Shown piece after piece: positions 1,955-54,521 of a DNA stretch of 64,000 nt. The notes beneath the pieces were generated by a model. It had not been told where the DNA came from. It did not search any database and saw nothing but the letters and a program-made list of their open reading frames with translations. Position 1 is the first letter of the stretch. Every line of letters starts with the position of its first letter. Where the stretch lies: positions 62,001-126,000 of the IMG/VR virus record IMGVR_UViG_3300033233_000006. One strand, 5' to 3'. Made by a program: the position numbers and the translations under genes. The stretch comes from a virus.

Positions 1955-2692
1955 GTGGCTGACATCCAGAACCCGAATCCCCCTTCGTATCCCTATGGGC
2001 AGTTCAAGCAGCTCCCGAGCGCAGACGGAGTCAGGCCGCTGCCCGACACCTTCATCGGGCCGCGTGACAAGGCGTACGCCGACTTCAAGGCGCGCGACAA
2101 GATCCGCATCCGCGGCGTCGACGCCTTCTACTACGCCAAGCTCGACCAGCCGAGGCGCATCGACAGCAAGGACGCGACGCCGCTCAAGAACTCGGAAGCC
2201 GTCGCCGAAGACGTGCTCAAGCGGCGGTCACACGCCGGTATGGCGCTCTACGGCGAGAACGCGCTCGTCGGCGAGCGGCTCGACTCGATCCACCGCGAGA
2301 TCCAGCCCGACTGGGCCCCCGACAAGGCGATCCTCGTGCGCGGCCTCCCGTTCGAGGTCCAGCAGGAGCAGAACGCCAACGAGCGCGGCGGCACCTACGT
2401 CCGGCAGCTCAAGTTCGATCTCGCTCGCGCCTCGTGCGAGACCGAGTGGAGCATCGCGCCCGAGCCGGGCGACATCGTCCGCATCCCGAAACTCTTCGAC
2501 ACGACCGGCGACGACTCGGGCGGCTACTTCGACGTGCTGAAAGTAGACGAGGACGAGACCAGGTTCGGCAGCACGGGTTTTTTCGTCTGCTACCGTCTCT
2601 CACTCTTCCGGTCGAGTCGCTACCCGGCGGAACGCAAGCTGTCGCCGGAGAAGACCACGACCGAACAAGACTTGCAGGAGCGAAGCACATGA
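1955..2692 (+). CDS. Putative neck protein, T4 gp14-like
   Basis: A 245-residue product, GTG start. The C-terminal half contains EPGDIVRIPKLFDT and, after YFDVLKVDEDETRFGSTG, the strand FFVCYRLSLFRSSRY. This order (a GD-hx-hP segment followed by hFxhxxVxxxxP/TFFxxG and a strand of hydrophobics) resembles the gp14 family of neck proteins, where the same region follows gp13. Synteny (gp13-like, HNH insert, small protein, this gene) supports it. It overlaps the next start by four bases (ATGA), a sign of translational coupling. Confidence 0.55.
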   Translation: MADIQNPNPPSYPYGQFKQLPSADGVRPLPDTFIGPRDKAYADFKARDKIRIRGVDAFYYAKLDQPRRIDSKDATPLKNSEAVAEDVLKRRSHAGMALYGENALVGERLDSIHREIQPDWAPDKAILVRGLPFEVQQEQNANERGGTYVRQLKFDLARASCETEWSIAPEPGDIVRIPKLFDTTGDDSGGYFDVLKVDEDETRFGSTGFFVCYRLSLFRSSRYPAERKLSPEKTTTEQDLQERST

Positions 2693-3084
2693 GACTCGCG
2701 ACCGAGATCCTCGCTGACCAGCTCGTCGCCTCGCTCTCCGAGGCGTGCTGCGGCGAGTGCGGCTCCATGAGCAAGCAGCTCGGCAAGAAGGTCTGCTGCG
2801 GCGGCCACAAGGAAGAGGAGAAGCCCGCTCCGAAGACGGAGGCGGCTGACCGCCACACGCATCCCTTCATCAAGAGGTGCGTCGCCGCGATGACGGGCAA
2901 GGAAGGGTCGAAGGACCCCCACAAGCCGGCCCAGCTCTCCTCGGCCTTCGCTATCTGCGTAGCCTCCAAGAAGAAGCACCCAGGTGCGGCGAAGGAGAAG
3001 GCGAAGGAGGGCGTGCCCGAGAAGAAGATGGCCGCCTACGAGAAGGCGCTCTCGGTCGCTCGCAAGGCGCGGGCGAAGAAGTAG
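2689..3084 (+). CDS. Hypothetical Cys- and Lys-rich protein, 131 aa
   Basis: ATG at 2689 overlaps the previous stop and has AGGAG 9 bases upstream. The N-terminal third has a Cys cluster (EACCGECGSMSK, VCCGG, then HTHPF and KRC) that could bind metal. The C-terminal half (AFAICVASKKK then a Lys/Ala-rich helix) is strongly basic. The function is unknown; a DNA- or head-vertex-associated role is only a guess from charge and position. Confidence 0.75.
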   Translation: MRLATEILADQLVASLSEACCGECGSMSKQLGKKVCCGGHKEEEKPAPKTEAADRHTHPFIKRCVAAMTGKEGSKDPHKPAQLSSAFAICVASKKKHPGAAKEKAKEGVPEKKMAAYEKALSVARKARAKK

Positions 3085-3804
3085 ATGTTCTCGCTCAAGG
3101 TCACGGTCAAGGGCGATCCCAAGGAGATCGAGCGCCGACTCCGGCTGGCGAGCCAGCTCACCGCGGAGAACGCGAGCTACAAGATCGCCGAGCTGGTGCG
3201 CCAGAAACTTCCGAGCGGCGGCTGGTACGACATCTACCGCCACGCGATCAACTACTTCGTCTCCAAGGACGGACGGAGGTGGGCTGTCGCGGGCCGGTGG
3301 GAGACGCAGTTCTCGACGTTCCCCGCCGAGGGGACGCTGATCGAGTTCGAGGGCGCTGGCGATGTCGCTGACGTGCTCATGCAGTACAGCCCGTGGGCGA
3401 TCGACCAGATCCCAGCCATCTCCGGCGGTTACCGACTCACTGTTGTCGCTCGACCGGCTCCTGCGGGGGATGTCGAGACGCGTCGGACGGCCATTATCGG
3501 CGCTCGCGCGGCGATCCTCGACAAGCTCAAGGCGGCGGGTGCGACGCCGACCGATGGGTTCCCGGCCATCAACGGACGCGTCTACGCCGACATCGCTTTC
3601 ATGGCGAAGGCGCTCGAACACGGGCTCGCAGGGCTCAAGCGCGTTCCGCACTGGGTCGTCGCCTTCAACGAGGCTCGACACGAGATCGCCAACTGGACCG
3701 AAGAATCAAGAGGGCGCATCCAGGCCATTCTCGATGGGTCAGCCGATTTCAAACCCAAGGCTCAGCCGATGCCGCCGGAGATGGATCGCGCGTCGGGCGC
3801 GTAG
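3085..3804 (+). CDS. Hypothetical tail-completion-region protein, 239 aa
   Basis: It begins immediately after the preceding stop. The N-terminus (SLKVTVKGDPKEIERRL) has a beta strand then an amphipathic helix, as in HK97 gp10-like tail-completion proteins, but similarity is too weak to assign. The middle holds WAVAGRWETQFSTFPAEGT and VLMQYSPWAIDQIP. Genomic place between neck proteins and the sheath suggests a tail terminator or joining protein. Confidence 0.7.
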   Translation: MFSLKVTVKGDPKEIERRLRLASQLTAENASYKIAELVRQKLPSGGWYDIYRHAINYFVSKDGRRWAVAGRWETQFSTFPAEGTLIEFEGAGDVADVLMQYSPWAIDQIPAISGGYRLTVVARPAPAGDVETRRTAIIGARAAILDKLKAAGATPTDGFPAINGRVYADIAFMAKALEHGLAGLKRVPHWVVAFNEARHEIANWTEESRGRIQAILDGSADFKPKAQPMPPEMDRASGA

Positions 3805-3852
3805 CATCGGTAGCTTGTGGCGGCTTCAGCCCGAGGTCCGTAGAATGCCGAC

Positions 3853-4662
3853 ATGGGCTCGCGCGAGTTCGGGCGGCGTACAGGTAATCTGGACAAGCTC
3901 GACTACGACCAGGCCGTCGCCGAGGGTCTCGGTGCCATCTTCGACGACGAGAAGAACCAGTACTTCCTCCCGATGGTCGACTCGAAGGGGCGCGGGATCT
4001 TCATCAGGCCCCAAGGGAGCGATGCGCCCATCGAGATCAGGCGGGCGCTCGTCGTCTTCAAGAAGCCCGAACCGACCAACGTCAACGACATCCTTCCGAT
4101 GATCGTCCTGAACCTCGACGACATCTCGTTCAACGCCAAGCGGCTCCTCGGCGTCACCGAGCAGTATCGCCTCGCCTCGGAGGGCGCCCATCGAGTAAAG
4201 ATCGGGAACGAACTGGGGTGGGACTCGTACGAGACCCGTGAGCAGGAGTGGCCGTTCGATCTGATCTACACCATCGAGTGCTGGAGCAGGTTCCGAGTCG
4301 TCGCAAACCAGCTTCTCCAGATGGCTCAAGTCAAGTATCCTGGTTACGGTTCTCTCACGGTCACCGACAGCATCAACAACGAGCGCGTCTATCACACGTT
4401 CCAAGAGGGCACCCAGGATCTCACGGAGGTCGACTCGCTGGTCGAACGCTACTGCGGCTACAGCCTGACCATCAGAGTCGAAGGCGAATACTCCAACGAA
4501 AAGATCGCCTTCGACGCCCCCGCCTTCCTCGGCCAGACCATTCCTGCTTCTGGGGGTGGCGGTGGAGGGGGTGGAGGTGGTGGAATAGACCTTGGCCCCG
4601 GCGGTCTCATCGGCGATGGCCGTCCTACCGAGCGTGTTACGCTCATAGAACCCGACGAATGA
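3853..4662 (+). CDS. Putative tail terminator or neck-region protein with polyglycine tract
   Basis: A 269-residue protein. The core contains DDISFNAKRLLGVTEQYRLA, EQEWPFDLIYTIECWSR and YSLTIRVEGEYSNEK, a mixed alpha/beta pattern; the position before the sheath gene fits a gp15-like tail terminator, but this is inferred. Eleven consecutive Gly codons near 4552-4584 separate the core from an acidic C-terminal tail. There is no clear Shine-Dalgarno before the ATG at 3853, but a TAGAAT hexamer lies at 3841-3846, so the transcript may be leaderless. Confidence 0.6.
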   Translation: MGSREFGRRTGNLDKLDYDQAVAEGLGAIFDDEKNQYFLPMVDSKGRGIFIRPQGSDAPIEIRRALVVFKKPEPTNVNDILPMIVLNLDDISFNAKRLLGVTEQYRLASEGAHRVKIGNELGWDSYETREQEWPFDLIYTIECWSRFRVVANQLLQMAQVKYPGYGSLTVTDSINNERVYHTFQEGTQDLTEVDSLVERYCGYSLTIRVEGEYSNEKIAFDAPAFLGQTIPASGGGGGGGGGGGIDLGPGGLIGDGRPTERVTLIEPDE

Positions 4663-27632: not shown

Positions 27633-29560
27633 CCCTTCCGACGCTCGCCTTCGCGCCTACGCAGATCAAGCCGGTCTTCGGGGAGTCGTACGTCTCGGAG
27701 GCGGCGAACACGAAGTTCCTCGGACAACCGCGCGGCGTCTATCTCGGGTTTGTGCCGCAGGTTACGACAGGCTCGCGATTCCTCACACTGGCGGTCGACC
27801 CGGTCTACGGCGTCTCTCTCGCGCGCATGAAGTCCTCGCTCGAAGCGACGAACGTCGACGTGGTCTCGGACCAGGCGACCACACTCGACTTCACCGGGCA
27901 CAACTTCATCGCCGACCCGACCGTTTACGTGAAGGTTCACGCCAGCTCGAAGCTCGGGTCTCCGACGACGGCGGAGGTCTACACAACCGCCGTTCCGGGG
28001 TCGACGCCGACCGATCAACTGCTCTGCGTCGTTACGCTCGTTCTCGGCGAGCTGAGCGTGGCCTCCGATGCGCCGGCCAACCGAGCGACGCCCTACGCCT
28101 ACGCAACGGCACCGCTTGGCTACGGCTTCATGCGAGATGGCGCCGTCGAGCAGCTTCTTGCGTCGGTGGCGATGGTCGCCGAGGTGGCGGCGGCCCGAGT
28201 CGATCTCGACGGCGTCAACCACCCCTACGTGCCGATCCCGCAGCAAGGCATCGCTGACCGCATCGCCGCTGACCTTCTCCCCGCCGCCGTGGCGAGCCGC
28301 CTCGGACGCTCTCACTACATCGTCCGCAGCCAGGACTACTTCACCGCTGGTGCGGCGGACACTTTCCAGGTCTCCAGCTCGTTCGCCAAGGCGGCCAGGA
28401 CGCGCGCCCCGCTCATCACCATCCCACCCAACGCGTCCGAGCTGGCAAACGGCGCGATCACCGGTACGAACGACGCAACGAGGAATATCTGCTTCGTCTT
28501 TCAGGTGGGCAAGAACGAGCGTCCGACCGATGCCAACAGGTTCGTGGGCTATGGTCGCCTCGACGCGTTCGTGATGGTTCTCACCGGCGTGCCCACGTTC
28601 AGCAACGTGAGCACGCTGGTTACCGGCGTCGGGACACTCTTCACGTCGGAGATCCAGGCGGGCGACATCATCCTCGCACCCGACGGCGAGTTCTACGTCG
28701 TGAGCACGATCACAGACGACTTCAATCTCACGCTTACGACGATTCCGACCATCGGCGGTCCCGTCGTCTCGACTCGGCGCCGCTTCCAGCTTCGCGTCGT
28801 CGTGATCAACCCAACAACCGGAGTCGAGCAACCGCTCGCTCTGCCCGGCGGCACGACGTTCCGGTTCTTCTTCGGAGCCTTCTTCGACCTCACGCAGTCG
28901 ATCCACGACTCGACGCTCCTCATGTTCGAGGGCGGCGAGGAGCCGCCACTCCCCGACTCGGCTGTCGGGGTGAGGGGCAAGGCGCAGGTCAACCCACTCA
29001 TCACCTACCCCGCCTTGGTCGGAGCGGTCAGAGCGCTCGACAACGGCAACCCGGTCGGCACCGGACGCCTCGCCTACTCGCTGGGGTTCCACAGCCCTCC
29101 CGGCCAACCGGCCATCCCAGGCGCATCGCTCAACGTGACGCCCGGCATCGCCAACGTGACGGCAGCGGGCCAGGTGGGGCCGATCGGTCCTCCGGGACTC
29201 GGACCTGGGCCGACGGGACCGGTCGGACCAGCCGGGCTCGCATTCAACAGCTTCTCCACACTGTTCACGGCAAGTGCTGACTTCCTTGCGCCATTCGGCG
29301 GCTGGTCGCTCGGGCAGGTACTTACGCACGACGTGGTCTTCGCCGGTTCGATCAAGTACCTGCACGGCGGCATCTCCCTGTGGGCGATCGACGCTCCCTC
29401 GGCTGACAACAACGACAACTTCGACATCACGGCTGTTACGATCACCAACCCCGGGGGTCTCAACAACACAGGACGCATCCAACTTACGGTCCCGAACGAG
29501 ACGAGTACCAGCGGACCGCCGATCGGGACCTACGGCCTCTTCCTTAACGCGGCGGGCTAA
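27629..29560 (+). CDS. Tail fibre paralogue 1 with collagen-like stretch
   Basis: 643 residues. Shared N-terminal plan with the next two genes: (K/R)FLGQPRGVYLGFVPQVTTGS, a LDFTGHNF-like strand, then a central region with RFVGYGRLDAFVMVLTG, ILAPDGEFYVVSTI and RRRFQLRVVVIN. Near 29176-29240 it has G-x-y triplets (GPIGPPG, GPTGPVGPAG) followed by a unique beta-rich tip of about 110 residues. The layout suggests a common attachment part and a variable receptor-binding tip joined by a collagen-like rod. Confidence 0.75.
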   Translation: MTLPTLAFAPTQIKPVFGESYVSEAANTKFLGQPRGVYLGFVPQVTTGSRFLTLAVDPVYGVSLARMKSSLEATNVDVVSDQATTLDFTGHNFIADPTVYVKVHASSKLGSPTTAEVYTTAVPGSTPTDQLLCVVTLVLGELSVASDAPANRATPYAYATAPLGYGFMRDGAVEQLLASVAMVAEVAAARVDLDGVNHPYVPIPQQGIADRIAADLLPAAVASRLGRSHYIVRSQDYFTAGAADTFQVSSSFAKAARTRAPLITIPPNASELANGAITGTNDATRNICFVFQVGKNERPTDANRFVGYGRLDAFVMVLTGVPTFSNVSTLVTGVGTLFTSEIQAGDIILAPDGEFYVVSTITDDFNLTLTTIPTIGGPVVSTRRRFQLRVVVINPTTGVEQPLALPGGTTFRFFFGAFFDLTQSIHDSTLLMFEGGEEPPLPDSAVGVRGKAQVNPLITYPALVGAVRALDNGNPVGTGRLAYSLGFHSPPGQPAIPGASLNVTPGIANVTAAGQVGPIGPPGLGPGPTGPVGPAGLAFNSFSTLFTASADFLAPFGGWSLGQVLTHDVVFAGSIKYLHGGISLWAIDAPSADNNDNFDITAVTITNPGGLNNTGRIQLTVPNETSTSGPPIGTYGLFLNAAG

Positions 29561-49334: not shown

Positions 49335-49823
49335 GTGGCATCGAGCGCCGAGCGTCAACGTCGTTACAGGAAACGCCATCTAACGATGGTGCGGGCGCGA
49401 GATGCTGCGACCCATCGCCAGGCCCGACGCGATGGAACGGATTACGCCGAGCGGTGCCGCGCCGCCAAACGAACGCCGGCTGCGCGCTCCAAGCGGAACG
49501 CTGCCCGTCGTAAACCGGCGTCGCGCGTCGCTCAGGCGGCGTACATGCGCGAACAACGGACGCGACCCGAGTTCAAGCTCAAGGACCGAGCGCGCTCGGC
49601 GGTCAAGCGGGCTGTCAAGACTGGTCTCATAGCGGTCCCGCTCGCCTGTCAGCGCTGCGGTCGTGATCCGGGGACCGGCGCCGATGGCCGTCGCCTGCTT
49701 CGGGCTCACCATCGCGGCTACGACAAGGCGCACGAGCTGGATGTCCAATTCGTCTGTCCGACGTGCGACGGTGACTTGGAGCGTGCGCGCAAAAACACGA
49801 CGCTCGAACGGTGGAAACGATGA
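49335..49823 (+). CDS. HNH endonuclease-like protein (HH zinc type)
   Basis: 162 residues. A very basic N-terminal half with repeated R-x-x-R segments (ERQRRYRKRHL; ARSKRNAARRK; YMREQRTRPEFK) precedes a zinc-stabilised HNH-like core: CQRCGRDPG, LLRAHHRGYDKAHEL, FVCPTCDGDLERARK. The HH-x-x-Y and Cys pairs match HNH proteins that act on HH-D-Y sites. Its stop overlaps the methyltransferase start. No duplicated gene end was found here. Confidence 0.75.
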   Translation: MASSAERQRRYRKRHLTMVRARDAATHRQARRDGTDYAERCRAAKRTPAARSKRNAARRKPASRVAQAAYMREQRTRPEFKLKDRARSAVKRAVKTGLIAVPLACQRCGRDPGTGADGRRLLRAHHRGYDKAHELDVQFVCPTCDGDLERARKNTTLERWKR

Positions 49824-52800
49824 GCGGCTATCTCAACGTCGTGGGCGTATCCGACAACATCGCTTGGCTCAAGCAGGTTCCAAGTGGTTCCGTCGACTCG
49901 TGTTGTACCGACGCTCCTTACGGGCTCGGCGAACCGCCGCCCATCCTGTCGGTCCTGATGGCCTGGGCTCGCGGGAAAGACTTCAAGCCCGAGGGCGCCG
50001 GCTTCATGGGGAACGAGTGGGACGCCTTCGTTCCGAACCCGTCTATCTGGCGCGAAGTTTTCAGAATTCTCAAGCCGGGCGGCTGGTGCCTTGTCTTCTT
50101 CGGCTCACGCACCTTCGACCTCGGCTCGATCGCGATTCGAGTTGCCGGCTTCGAGGTGCTCGATACGTGCATGTGGCTTTACGGCCAGGGTTTCCCGAAG
50201 TCGGTCGACATCGCCAAGGTGGTCGACAAGGACGCCGGCCACTGGCGGGGGCGCGCGGGCAAGGCCGTCTCCGACAACCGCTCGATGGCGGCGCCGAACT
50301 ACGAGCGGACGGACAAGGGCAAGGCGATCACCGAGGACGCGAAGAAGTGGGAGGGGTGGGGTACCGCCCTCAAACCGGCCTTCGAGCCGATCGTGGTGGC
50401 CCGGAAGCCGTTTGAGGGGACCTACGTCGAGCACGTCCTCGCGCACGGCACCGGCGCGCTCAACATCGACGCCAGTCGCGTCGGGTCCGGCGCGGACAAG
50501 GGCGTGTGGCCGGCGACCGACCGCGAGACGCGGAAGTTCTGGGACAAGCCCTCACACCAGGCCGTGACGGACACGTCGGTCGGACGCTGGCCGGCGAACG
50601 TGGTCCTCGCGCACGACCCGCGCTGCGTGAAAGTGGGCACGAAGACGGTCGGCAAGGGCGAGTCGCGCAAGGGCAACGATTCGCGCGACGACAAGACGGT
50701 CATCAAGCCGCAGGTCCCCGTCGGAAGCCGCGACACCTCGATTGTCGACTACGGAGCCGAAGTGGTCGACGACTGGAGGTGTGTCGAGGGGTGTCCGATC
50801 GGGCTGCTCGACGGACAAAGCGGCATCAGCAAGTCGGCGGGAGGCCGCATCGGGAACAAGGCCGGGATCGGCGCTCACGGGATCTACGGCTCCTTCGCGC
50901 CCGACGCCGTGAAGGGCGATCCGGGCTACGGCGACGAAGGAGGGGCGAGCCGTTATTTTAAGACCTTCCCCGAACCGTCGAGGACGGTTGACAACGACGA
51001 TTCTTCTACGCATGATGGGGCGATATGCGCAGAGAGTGCGAACACTGCGGAACATCGTTCGACGCCAAACCAAGCGCCGTCGCCCGAGGCTTCGGGCGGT
51101 TCCACTCCCGAGAGTGCGGGAGTCTCGCGAGGCGAAAGCGGGGTCGCGCCGATGCCTGGCGCTACTTCTCGAAACGCGACGGGCGCTGGTACAGAAAGTG
51201 GCGTGAGCCGGGAAGCCGGAAGCTCAATTCCCAACTCGAATCCAGGTGGGTCTGGGAGCAACACAACGGTCCCATCCCAGACGGGCACGAAGTCCACCAC
51301 GCCGACCTCGATCAGACGAACAACGAGTACGGGAACCTCAAGCTCATCACGGAAACGGAACACGACAACCTCCACGGACGACTCCGCGAAGACCACCGCG
51401 TCGTCAACGGCTGCGAAGAGCGGCGGTGCCAACGCTGTCTCCGGTGGAAGTCCATCGTCCGATTCAGCAAGAGGTCTGCCGGAACCTACCACGGCTACTG
51501 CAAAGGATGCGCGCGGAGCTATCTCCGTAAGTGGCGACGGGCGAACCGAGTCCACCACAACGCCTACATGCGGGCCTACCGAAAACCTCTCGCTCGACGG
51601 TAAGACGCGCTTCTTCTACACGGCCAAGGCTACGGCGAAGGAGCGATGGAGCTACTGCCGGGCGTGCAAGGTCGTCTTCCAGCACACGGCTGACGACGCC
51701 TTCGAGGAACACGACGCGCACAAGACCGAGGTGGTCTCGCATCCGACCCAGAAGCCGCTTGACCTCATGGAGTACTTCGTTCGGCTGGTGACGCAACCGG
51801 GCGGCACGGTGGTCGATCCGTTCTGCGGGTGCTACGACCCGCTCACATCGGTTCTCACCGAGCGCGGGTTCGTTTCGTGGCCGGATGTGAGGGACGACGA
51901 CGTGTTCGCGTCTCGCGCCCCCGACGGTTCGATCATCTACCAGAAGGCCCAAGGCTTCGTGCGGACCCGCTACGTCGGCGTGATGCATCACTACGTCGGT
52001 CGCTCGGTCGACCTTCTCGTCACGCCAGGTCACAACATGCTCTTTCGGCGGCATCACGACGCTGACCCCACAAACTACGAGTTGATCGGGTCGGAGAACG
52101 CCGCTGAGCGCTTCTATCACATACCGAACACATCGACGTGGACCGGCGCGGAGCCGGATACTCTGCGCGTCGGAACACTCGACCTTCCGGCGCAGGCGTG
52201 GCTTCGGTTCCTCGGGCTCTACATCGCCGAGGGGTGCGTCGCGCGTAAGCATAAGCGCGGCTACGGTATCTTCATCAAGCAGAGCAAGAGCGCCGAGGCG
52301 GTTGACGAGGTTCGGGCAACTATCCGCGGCATAGAGGTCGGGCGGCTCCGCGAACACACCTACGACGACCTCCACATCTTCGTGTGCCAGGAGAAGTCGC
52401 TGCACGCCTACTGCAAGGCGCTCGGCTACCAGCCAGACCGTCGCATCCCTCGCGAACTCCTCTCGCTCGGGCCGAAGCACTTGCGGGCGCTCTACGATGG
52501 TCTGATGCTTGGCGATGGGAGTCGCCGTAACGGTCGCGATTCTTACTGGACGTGTAGCCCTGGACTTGCCGACGACGTTGCCGAGATGATGATCAAGCTC
52601 GGGTTAGCCGCTTCGGTCTCTGCGCGTATTCGCCCAGCACGGATCTGCATGGGTCGGATAATCAAGTCCGACCGCTATCAGTACTCCACGCTCGCTCGAT
52701 ATGCGCGAGAGACAAAGATCGACACTTACAGGATGCGTCGCGAGGTGCCTTACGACGGCATGATCTACTGCGCGACCGTACCGCCCCATCACACGCTTCT

Positions 52801-53119
52801 TGTGAAGCGAAATGGCAAGATTGCGTGGTGCGGCAACACAGGTTCGACCGCTGTCGCAGCCAAGCGATGCGGATTCAACTTCGTGACGTGCGACATTGGG
52901 GAGGACTACGTCAAGATCGCCGAAGCACGGCTCGCCGCCGTGACCATCGGTAACGATGCCAAGATCGGCGCATCGTACTTCTGTCCCGGCTGCAAGGCGA
53001 AGGGCGAGATCAAGCTCATCGAGCGCGCAACCGTCGAACGCATGAAGGCCGACGGCAAAAAGGTGACCTGCTCGAAGTGCATGAAGCGGTACTCATACGA
53101 GGAGCTGGTGGGCGCGTGA
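49820..53119 (+). CDS. DNA methyltransferase (beta class) carrying an out-of-frame HNH insertion and an intein
   Basis: ATG at 49820 starts MSGYLNVVGVSDN (49811 is less likely). The N-terminal part has the catalytic motif IV variant TDAPYGLG, then ILKPGGWCLVFFGSRTFDLG; the C-terminal part has SHPTQKPLDLMEYFV and DPFCG/TGSTAVAA (motif I), order IV...I, as in beta-class N6-adenine/N4-cytosine enzymes. After intein removal two zinc ribbons remain (YCRACKVVF; FCPGCKAKG/TCSKCMKRY). Residues derived from about 50985-51600 are a Ser/Thr-rich stretch that is the out-of-frame reading of an inserted HNH gene. Left of it GGASRYFKTFPEPSR and right of it TRFFYTAKATAKERW are normal methyltransferase sequence. 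Whether the full chain is active is unknown. Confidence 0.85.
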   Translation: MSGYLNVVGVSDNIAWLKQVPSGSVDSCCTDAPYGLGEPPPILSVLMAWARGKDFKPEGAGFMGNEWDAFVPNPSIWREVFRILKPGGWCLVFFGSRTFDLGSIAIRVAGFEVLDTCMWLYGQGFPKSVDIAKVVDKDAGHWRGRAGKAVSDNRSMAAPNYERTDKGKAITEDAKKWEGWGTALKPAFEPIVVARKPFEGTYVEHVLAHGTGALNIDASRVGSGADKGVWPATDRETRKFWDKPSHQAVTDTSVGRWPANVVLAHDPRCVKVGTKTVGKGESRKGNDSRDDKTVIKPQVPVGSRDTSIVDYGAEVVDDWRCVEGCPIGLLDGQSGISKSAGGRIGNKAGIGAHGIYGSFAPDAVKGDPGYGDEGGASRYFKTFPEPSRTVDNDDSSTHDGAICAESANTAEHRSTPNQAPSPEASGGSTPESAGVSRGESGVAPMPGATSRNATGAGTESGVSREAGSSIPNSNPGGSGSNTTVPSQTGTKSTTPTSIRRTTSTGTSSSSRKRNTTTSTDDSAKTTASSTAAKSGGANAVSGGSPSSDSARGLPEPTTATAKDARGAISVSGDGRTESTTTPTCGPTENLSLDGKTRFFYTAKATAKERWSYCRACKVVFQHTADDAFEEHDAHKTEVVSHPTQKPLDLMEYFVRLVTQPGGTVVDPFCGCYDPLTSVLTERGFVSWPDVRDDDVFASRAPDGSIIYQKAQGFVRTRYVGVMHHYVGRSVDLLVTPGHNMLFRRHHDADPTNYELIGSENAAERFYHIPNTSTWTGAEPDTLRVGTLDLPAQAWLRFLGLYIAEGCVARKHKRGYGIFIKQSKSAEAVDEVRATIRGIEVGRLREHTYDDLHIFVCQEKSLHAYCKALGYQPDRRIPRELLSLGPKHLRALYDGLMLGDGSRRNGRDSYWTCSPGLADDVAEMMIKLGLAASVSARIRPARICMGRIIKSDRYQYSTLARYARETKIDTYRMRREVPYDGMIYCATVPPHHTLLVKRNGKIAWCGNTGSTAVAAKRCGFNFVTCDIGEDYVKIAEARLAAVTIGNDAKIGASYFCPGCKAKGEIKLIERATVERMKADGKKVTCSKCMKRYSYEELVGA
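50988..51016 (+). promoter_or_regulatory. Promoter inside the methyltransferase gene, for the nested HNH gene
   Basis: TTGACA (perfect -35, 50988-50993), 17 bases, CATGAT (51011-51016). The HNH start at 51025 follows eight bases later without a Shine-Dalgarno. It lies in the inserted or junction sequence, so the element probably brings its own expression signal. Confidence 0.6.
51025..51603 (+). CDS. HNH endonuclease nested out of frame in the methyltransferase gene
   Basis: 192 residues, different frame from the host gene. It begins MRRECEHCGTSFDAKPSAVA (zinc finger, partner RFHSRECGS), then the catalytic GHEVHHADLDQTNNEYGNLK and TEHDNLHGR, typical HNH_3, and a second zinc ribbon (RRCQRCLRWKS ... 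GYCKGCARS). The convincing domain set shows that this frame is the genuine product of the inserted segment. It fills nearly the whole insert, leaving no room for a group I intron core. Confidence 0.88.
   Translation: MRRECEHCGTSFDAKPSAVARGFGRFHSRECGSLARRKRGRADAWRYFSKRDGRWYRKWREPGSRKLNSQLESRWVWEQHNGPIPDGHEVHHADLDQTNNEYGNLKLITETEHDNLHGRLREDHRVVNGCEERRCQRCLRWKSIVRFSKRSAGTYHGYCKGCARSYLRKWRRANRVHHNAYMRAYRKPLARR
51830..52837 (+). mobile_element. Intein with LAGLIDADG homing endonuclease (in the methyltransferase)
   Basis: 336 residues. Begins with Cys in CYDPLTSVLTERGF, has a block B-like VDLLVTPGHNMLF, LAGLIDADG helices LRFLGLYIAEGCV and LYDGLMLGDGS, and ends KRNGKIAWCGN, followed by Thr as first residue of the C-extein. 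It is placed exactly in motif I (DPFCG^TGSTAVAA). The end (RNG-x-x-WCGN, Gly before Asn) and start are nearly the same as in the intein at 43174. Confidence 0.92.
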
Positions 53120-53836
53120 AAGATCCGTGGGACTCTCAGATCATTCGCTTCCGGCACCTCGCAGATGGACCAGGCAGGTTCATCGTTGTAGAGGGGAATG
53201 TGGGGGTTGGCAAAAGTGTTTTCGCCGAGCATCTGGCCGCCGCCAAATCGGCGGCGACCGGACGTAAGTGCGAGGCGTTCCCTGAACCGGTCGACAAGCC
53301 AGCATTCAGGACCCTGCTTGGTCGCTACTACGCCGATCCCGCGCGATGGGGTTTTGCGTTCCAGATGTACGCACTCAAGGAGCGCTTCCGGCAGCACACG
53401 CTTGCCGCGGAGCTGGTGGCGAACGGCATCGATGTGATCCAAGACCGAAGTATCTATGCCGACTGCTGCTTCGGACATCTCGTCCGAGCGGACGGCAACA
53501 TGACCGAGGAGGAGTGGGACATCTACGCCGAGACGTTCGGCGCACTCAAGCGGTTCCTTCGCTACCCGGACCTCATGATCTACTTACGCGCATCTCCCGA
53601 GACGTGTCACGAGCGCATCAAGTTGCGCGCGCTCGGAAGAAAGCAGCATCCCTCTCGATTATCTGCGGCGGCTCCATAACGAGCACGAAGGACTGATCGA
53701 GGCGATGAGCCGCTTCACGCGCGTTGCCGTGTTCGACTGGATGAGCTTCGAGACGAGCATGGGCAACGTGCTCGCTAGAGTGGACAGCGTTTTGTCCGAG
53801 GACGTGCGATTCCTGCGCGACTTTGCGAGGCTGTAA
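53116..53836 (+). CDS. Deoxynucleoside kinase, frame disrupted near 53630
   Basis: GTG start overlapping the methyltransferase stop. The P-loop is VVEGNVGVGKSVFAEHLAAA; later come IDVIQDRSIYADCCF (the DRS motif) and PDLMIYLRASPETCHERIKL, typical of dNK-type kinases. The first frame continues only to 53679 with unrelated residues. The natural continuation is in the +1 frame from about 53633 (SEESSIPLDYLRRLHNEHEG onward to the stop at 53834-53836). A one-base difference in the GCGCGCGC run near 53625-53632 causes this; it could be real inactivation, programmed shift or a sequence error. Confidence 0.75.
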
Positions 53837-53837
53837 C

Positions 53838-54521
53838 GTGGCTAAACGGCTGTCCGATGAGCAACGAGCTTCCAGACGTGTTTACGCCCGCGCCTATTAT
53901 CGTCGATCGGGAACGAAGGAGAGTCGCGCTGCCTGGCGCGATCAAAACCGTCAAAAGATCAGAGATGATCAGCGTCGATACCACGAAAGGCGTGTCGCTA
54001 AGAATCCCAATTTCGGCAAGGAGGCGCGGGACCGGCGTCGAGCTAGATTAAAGGGCGCTGCGGGTCGACACACGCTAGACGACTGGAAACTCATTCTTGC
54101 TAAGTTTGACAACGAGTGCGCGTTCTGTGGGACGAGGGATGCCGTCAACAAAGATCACCTCGTTCCGCTGTGTCGCGGCGGAACTGATTGGCCTGAGAAT
54201 CTTGTTCCGGCCTGCAAAACGTGTAACGAGACGAAGGGCGGGAGAGACCCTGTAGTAGCGATCTCCCGGATCGCGACAGCGGGGCGCGCTCCGCGTCTTT
54301 TGGACTACCTCAAGAGCAGCCTCGCCCTACCCGGCAATCGGGTGAGAAGGTCGTATGAAAAGGTGAGTTCGGATGCGCTCTTGACTGAGGCAAAGAGGAT
54401 CAAGGCCGCCTTCGGAAAACTCACCGTTGAGCTACTTAACGCCCACTCGCGGTACGCTAGTTCCACGTACGAACGCCGCTTTGGTGGGATGACTGGGCTA
54501 AGGAAGACCATCCAGTGCTGA
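53838..54521 (+). CDS. Free-standing HNH endonuclease (canonical zinc HNH)
   Basis: 227 residues, GTG start one base after the kinase stop. A basic N-terminal half with several R-x-Y segments precedes ECAFCGTRDAVNKDHLVPLC and ENLVPACKTCNETKGGRDP, the canonical C-x2-C, D-H, N, C-x2-C HNH. The C-terminal 75 residues are helical. Its last codons overlap the beginning of a kinase fragment whose open frame extends back to 54461, indicating insertion into that gene. Confidence 0.85.
   Translation: MAKRLSDEQRASRRVYARAYYRRSGTKESRAAWRDQNRQKIRDDQRRYHERRVAKNPNFGKEARDRRRARLKGAAGRHTLDDWKLILAKFDNECAFCGTRDAVNKDHLVPLCRGGTDWPENLVPACKTCNETKGGRDPVVAISRIATAGRAPRLLDYLKSSLALPGNRVRRSYEKVSSDALLTEAKRIKAAFGKLTVELLNAHSRYASSTYERRFGGMTGLRKTIQC

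Follow-up and report, generated by a model that had tools for sequence, protein, structure and literature searches.

A DNA methylase gene in the 64,000-nucleotide stretch of viral DNA analysed here (the window, taken from a virus record of about 131 kb) appears to carry a homing endonuclease gene without splicing it out. We assign a probability of roughly 0.87 to a non-splicing homing-endonuclease insertion in which an internal start gives the HNH protein and the methylase product includes a disordered loop. A mobile HNH gene would have inserted into the phage DNA methylase gene beside the conserved SRFFYxAK codons, leaving a 610-bp segment that would hold two overlapping messages. An internal start in the segment's own frame would yield the HNH endonuclease. 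Methylase alleles that lack the insert are presumably its targets, cut at these conserved codons and then given a copy of the insert by repair (homing). In the methylase frame, translation would continue across the segment and add about 200 disordered residues rich in Ser and Thr, which would loop out between the partly duplicated codons of the target. A full-length methylase could therefore still be made. Selection may act on both messages, in the HNH frame on the amino acids and in the methylase frame only on the absence of stops and on phase. We infer the translation of both frames, homing and methylase activity from the sequence.

The first-pass annotation of this DNA had noticed a complete HNH protein lying out of frame inside a methylase frame that stays open, and the ORFs and Pfam searches on both frames agree with this description (Table 1). 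The host ORF has no stop across 51025-51603. The nested frame matches HNH_3 (E = 2.6e-14) and is shifted by +1, such that the second position of its codons is the first position of the host codons. The catalytic residues H91/H92, N104 and H113 are invariant, as are H117 and four zinc-type cysteines. A structural model of the HNH protein has a confident fold (pLDDT 86.8), and its best match in the PDB is I-HmuI (Foldseek probability 0.99, with an E-value of 0.11 that lies above 0.001). The source virus (G000:C1) has seven HNH_3 matches, and nesting out of frame was found just for the one in the methylase gene. The HNH_3 match near 28341 is located in frame within an ORF of more than 1,000 aa.

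Table 1. Positions of the host methylase gene, the nested HNH gene and related features. Coordinates refer to the window unless a locus is named.
Feature	Position	Strand	Basis or remark
Host gene, N4/N6 DNA methylase, single open frame of 1102 aa with GTG start	49811..53119	+	ORF; Pfam N6_N4_Mtase, E 4.6e-20
Methylase N-terminal part, ends at GGASRYFKTFPEPSRTV	49811..50989	+	
Left joint with a degenerate target copy	50998..51015	+	HNH-frame reading R-F-F-Y-A-stop; not in phase with host
Nested HNH_3 homing endonuclease ORF, 192 aa	51025..51603	+	Overlaps host residues 406-597 in the other frame
HNH_3 catalytic domain	51244..51363	+	Pfam, residues 74-113
Methylase resumes, TRFFYTAKATAKERW...HPTQKP...DPFCG	51605..51829	+	
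LAGLIDADG intein of the ordinary splicing type, C674 to N1009 of the precursor	51830..52837	+	Pfam LAGLIDADG_3
Published ShiLan HNH start region	L013 1717-1801		Phages read also L009, L012, L014-L016, L022

The target codons are present on both sides of the insert. The left copy, CGATTCTTCTAC (50998-51009), and the right copy, CGCTTCTTCTAC (51608-51619), are identical in 11 of 12 bases and are spaced by 610 bp, which is 1 modulo 3. The right copy is the in-frame continuation TRFFYTAK. The left copy is followed by GCA TGA, which produces the reading with the stop in the HNH frame, and the host frame reads D-D-S-S-T-H across 50998-51015. The joint coordinates and readings given in the earlier annotation prove exact, and the target duplication that it proposed is present as this repeat, with its left copy out of phase. 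In the host frame, the target residues at the two joints of the window are SRYF and TRFFY. More generally, loci with this site retain SRFF to the left of the insert and RFFYxAK or a variant to its right, and SRFFYxAKAS is gapless in 69 of the 71 insert-free methylases in which the site can be assigned. Searches among the relatives of the window gene yielded no close or near-identical gene without the insert.

The left copies also bear on the proposal that a one-base shift lets the host frame avoid the stop, which stands only in part. Of the six main SRFFY-site loci, five (the window, L002, L003, L004 and L025) have a TTYTTYTAY-like left copy, coding for FFY, that is one base off the host frame and runs into a stop within 1-4 codons. 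However, L003 and L026 also read a plausible native-like copy (SFMY and FLIY, respectively) in the host frame. The frame shift in L004 and L025 coincides with T-runs of differing length and is of opposite sign. These patterns suggest that the insertion may have truncated the methylase first and that a small indel may then have restored the frame. The site of the ShiLan domain (LKPxxEPxxxARKP), which was described together with Pacc40 gp60 by Arsenault, Gosselin and Gogarten in 2025 (PMC11855218), has host-frame target copies on both sides in most loci when they are judged by eye. The left copy is degenerate there, and its drift leaves a strict pattern with a count of 14 of 57. In phage Batiatus, whose allele is empty, the target is present once.

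Internal initiation is the best reading of how the HNH protein would be made. A Shine-Dalgarno (SD) match of at least 5 nt is found at 27 of 48 nested HNH starts versus 4.1% of the other ATG and GTG codons in the same genes, which is a 14-fold enrichment (p = 4e-25). Since the nested genes mostly have their own SD, leaderless translation is not required. The HNH start in the window has only a weak G-rich, SD-like stretch, and the ShiLan family has GGAGG 4 bases upstream of a conserved GTG. The one detailed paper on such elements reported a ribosome binding site to be undetectable for the nested HNH (PMC11855218), a statement that does not hold at this conserved start. The GTG proposed in the same paper, which would give a 195-aa HNH, is 26 codons upstream, and an in-frame TGA separates it from the conserved start in six of eight phages.

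Codon changes between related insertions distinguish how the two frames evolve. When the window is compared with L002, whose HNH is 69% identical, codons with a single change are 45 synonymous versus 14 nonsynonymous in the HNH frame and 18 synonymous versus 47 nonsynonymous in the host frame. Nine more pairs exhibit the same pattern. The codon-based comparison that the first-pass annotation had suggested thus places purifying selection on the HNH frame, while the host-frame reading drifts. This reading is filler, and the sole tested requirement on it is that it contain no stops. The insert is unstructured in an AlphaFold model of the whole methylase (pLDDT of about 26-36 versus 70-96 in much of the core), a model that is weak overall (pLDDT 49) and was used just for the missing structure in the insert.

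An open host frame might instead be a matter of chance, if GC-rich DNA and the composition of HNH proteins keep the +1 frame open while the methylase is simply broken, split by a free-standing endonuclease gene. The probability of an open host frame was computed exactly, with the HNH protein fixed and synonymous codons drawn according to host-gene usage. The window taken alone fits this explanation: the probability is 0.14 for an open +1 frame in this GC-rich gene, which is not significant, and an antisense ORF of 220 codons across this segment is likewise open at a chance level (P = 0.28). The window is consequently no proof of selection by itself, and its relatives have to decide. Viral contigs scanned with the HNH yielded L002, L003 (35% GC) and L004, all of which have it out of frame in an open methylase. 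Profile scans added L025, L026 and 80 ShiLan-like HNH loci, and scans with methylase queries added L182, L172, L237, L280 and L217. No relatives were found in a scan of genome contigs with the HNH alignment, and protein-level phage searches with the window and L003 HNHs matched mostly free-standing HNHs. Two candidates were rejected as nested cases. The HNH in the phage P1338 "DNA ligase" overlaps only the end of the ligase, with no through-frame open, and L024 (HNH about 45% identical) has no surrounding methylase. Because cases must not be defined by the result, loci were chosen by motif, taking every surveyed HNH with an upstream [TSC]D[APS]PY and a downstream H[PANS]T.KP on a single strand, regardless of frame.

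Both motifs are in one frame with zero stops between them in all 51 flanked loci, with GC contents down to 34%, and in three of these loci (L067, L068 and L095) the HNH frame contains a stop and the host frame is intact. Relatives with a methylase frame closed by stops, which the first-pass annotation had named as the sign that readthrough is chance, were sought, and none was found among the 51. The 45 nested +1 loci have 45 open host frames versus 0.92 expected, and in the remaining four frames the counts of open loci are close to expectation (7 versus 6.05 for antisense -0, for instance). Among 25 HNH genes without nesting, 1 is open versus 1.25 expected. The excess persists when the HNHs are grouped at 70% identity into 28 clusters, which are related and not fully independent insertions: all 28 are open versus 0.74 expected with host codon usage (sum log10 P = -69) or 3.15 expected with the HNH's own codon usage (sum log10 P = -31). 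The strongest single case is L217, a +2 nesting in a methylase (2486-4126) with 32% GC (P = 2.8e-11). Its +1 frame has 9 stops, so the frame that is open is the host's, whichever that is. Further single loci with low probabilities are L098 (P = 7e-6), L182 (P = 1.8e-5) and L026 (P = 3e-5). Open host frames occur even in AT-rich loci (31-40% GC), and none of the other HNH_3 genes checked in this virus lies nested within a long open frame. Across the relatives, the host methylase frame is kept stop-free by selection. Chance is already refuted for the family, and we regard it as very improbable for the window.

Two other explanations accept the open frame and differ in what becomes of the segment. 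A self-splicing intron, or an element of an undescribed type that splices at the protein level, could remove it, which would agree with insertion at conserved residues and with the similar sequence at both joints, as in introns and inteins; ShiLan-type elements have the same joints (PMC11855218). Splicing is nevertheless as improbable as chance. Rfam, which may miss a highly derived intron, finds no group I or group II intron in the window and 18 nested relatives. Only about 30 bp of the 610-bp segment remain for a ribozyme once the HNH ORF is subtracted, and an RNA intron needs no open host frame. A Pfam search of the host frame finds no intein or Hint match over residues 406-597. Together with the open host frames, the mostly synonymous changes to HNH codons and an insert modelled without structure, these results bear out the original suggestion of a non-splicing insertion that is tolerated as a linker or loop. 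Alternatively, the methylase halves may be separate, or the main product may be a truncated N-terminal form (SRFFYA-stop, reached via slippage) with readthrough as a minor event. The five loci with an out-of-phase left target copy and a stop within 1-4 codons are compatible with truncation, as are the T-runs at the joint in L004 and L025. However, the sign of the shift in L004 is unlike that in the others, a common slippery site is absent, and the strong selection that keeps the frame uninterrupted would serve no purpose with the truncated form as the product. We consider truncation or separate halves only marginally less improbable than chance or splicing. Programmed frameshifting at the left joint was rejected because the sign of the shift varies between loci and no slippery site is shared.

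The intein farther downstream in the window methylase has the junctions DPFCG/C...GN/TGSTAVAAK (slashes mark the splice points). The nearest relative, L002, is without this LAGLIDADG intein, and the window methylase thus carries two unlike mobile elements. A deoxynucleoside kinase gene (53077-53833) changes frame near 53650, and its C-terminal part (SIPLDYLRRLHNEHEGL...FLRDFARL) is in the next frame, which reflects either a one-base shift or a sequencing error. Between 53823 and 54900, an HNH gene (53823-54521) that contains a homing-endonuclease-associated repeat leads directly into a second deoxynucleoside kinase, of which the C-terminal half follows in another frame.

Endonuclease genes are also overprinted on hosts of other types and in other orientations. 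Gordonia phage GAL1 has an HNH nested (+2) in a nucleotide-kinase gene. In Acinetobacter phage Highwayman (L011, 927-3218), the splicing domain of a TerL intein is split by an out-of-frame HNH (+1, P = 7e-4), and L006 has an HNH nested (+2) in an intein-like ORF. Mycobacterium phage MKC-IRE-02 has an HNH antisense in a methylase, and HNHs in L105, L118, L124 and L127 are antisense in open frames of 1,045-2,140 aa, at least some of them with polyvalent-protein domains. The single-locus probabilities of the antisense cases are weak (0.05-0.2 each). Overprinted homing endonucleases are probably a general and widespread class of tailed-phage mobile elements that occupy at least four methylase sites, inteins, a nucleotide-kinase gene and antisense positions in giant polyvalent-protein genes, and that persist through endonuclease codon choice tuned to keep the host frame (+1, +2 or antisense) open to translation. 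Besides introns and inteins, readthrough by the host would give homing endonucleases a third way to reside within a conserved gene. With these loci, selection on two frames becomes measurable in dozens of naturally occurring dual-coding genes. Annotation pipelines hide the nested endonucleases by labelling such genes as methylase, terminase or kinase alone.

The insertion resembles several known systems and departs from each. The window HNH shares the HNH fold of I-HmuI, its best structural match, but I-HmuI sits in a self-splicing group I intron and none was found here. In fungal mitochondrial atp6-type homing endonuclease gene insertions, the host gene is restored by a duplicated coding stretch. 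Duplicated host codons make the insertion tolerable in both cases, whereas the atp6-type genes are in frame with the host or replace its end and the window nuclease is overprinted in another frame. The closest parallel is the ShiLan domain. Like it, the window HNH is out of frame in a stop-free phage DNA methylase, the two joints carry similar residues, the insert has neither an intron nor an intein, and the frame relation is identical (host codon position 1 is HNH position 2). Unlike it, the window insert occupies the SRFFY/AK site instead of LKPxxEP, occurs in a different phage, and encodes an HNH of another lineage (about 25-30% identity). The methylases Pacc40 gp60 and Applejack gp54/gp55, both with an out-of-frame HNH (PMC11855218, PMC12613952), can be likened to it at the level of architecture, which is the same at other positions and in other phages. 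The named cases in PMC11855218 are mycobacteriophages, and its BLAST survey mentions phages, bacteria and archaea. Codon-level selection and internal SD sequences are not among the tests in that paper; here, selection on the host frame was tested statistically and an SD (GGAGG) was found before the conserved GTG of the ShiLan family. This kind of element was first described in 2025, and what is new here is its broad distribution, the codon-level selection, the internal SD starts, the +2 and antisense nesting, and the nesting inside inteins. Such elements prove to be far more widespread and varied than the 2025 description.
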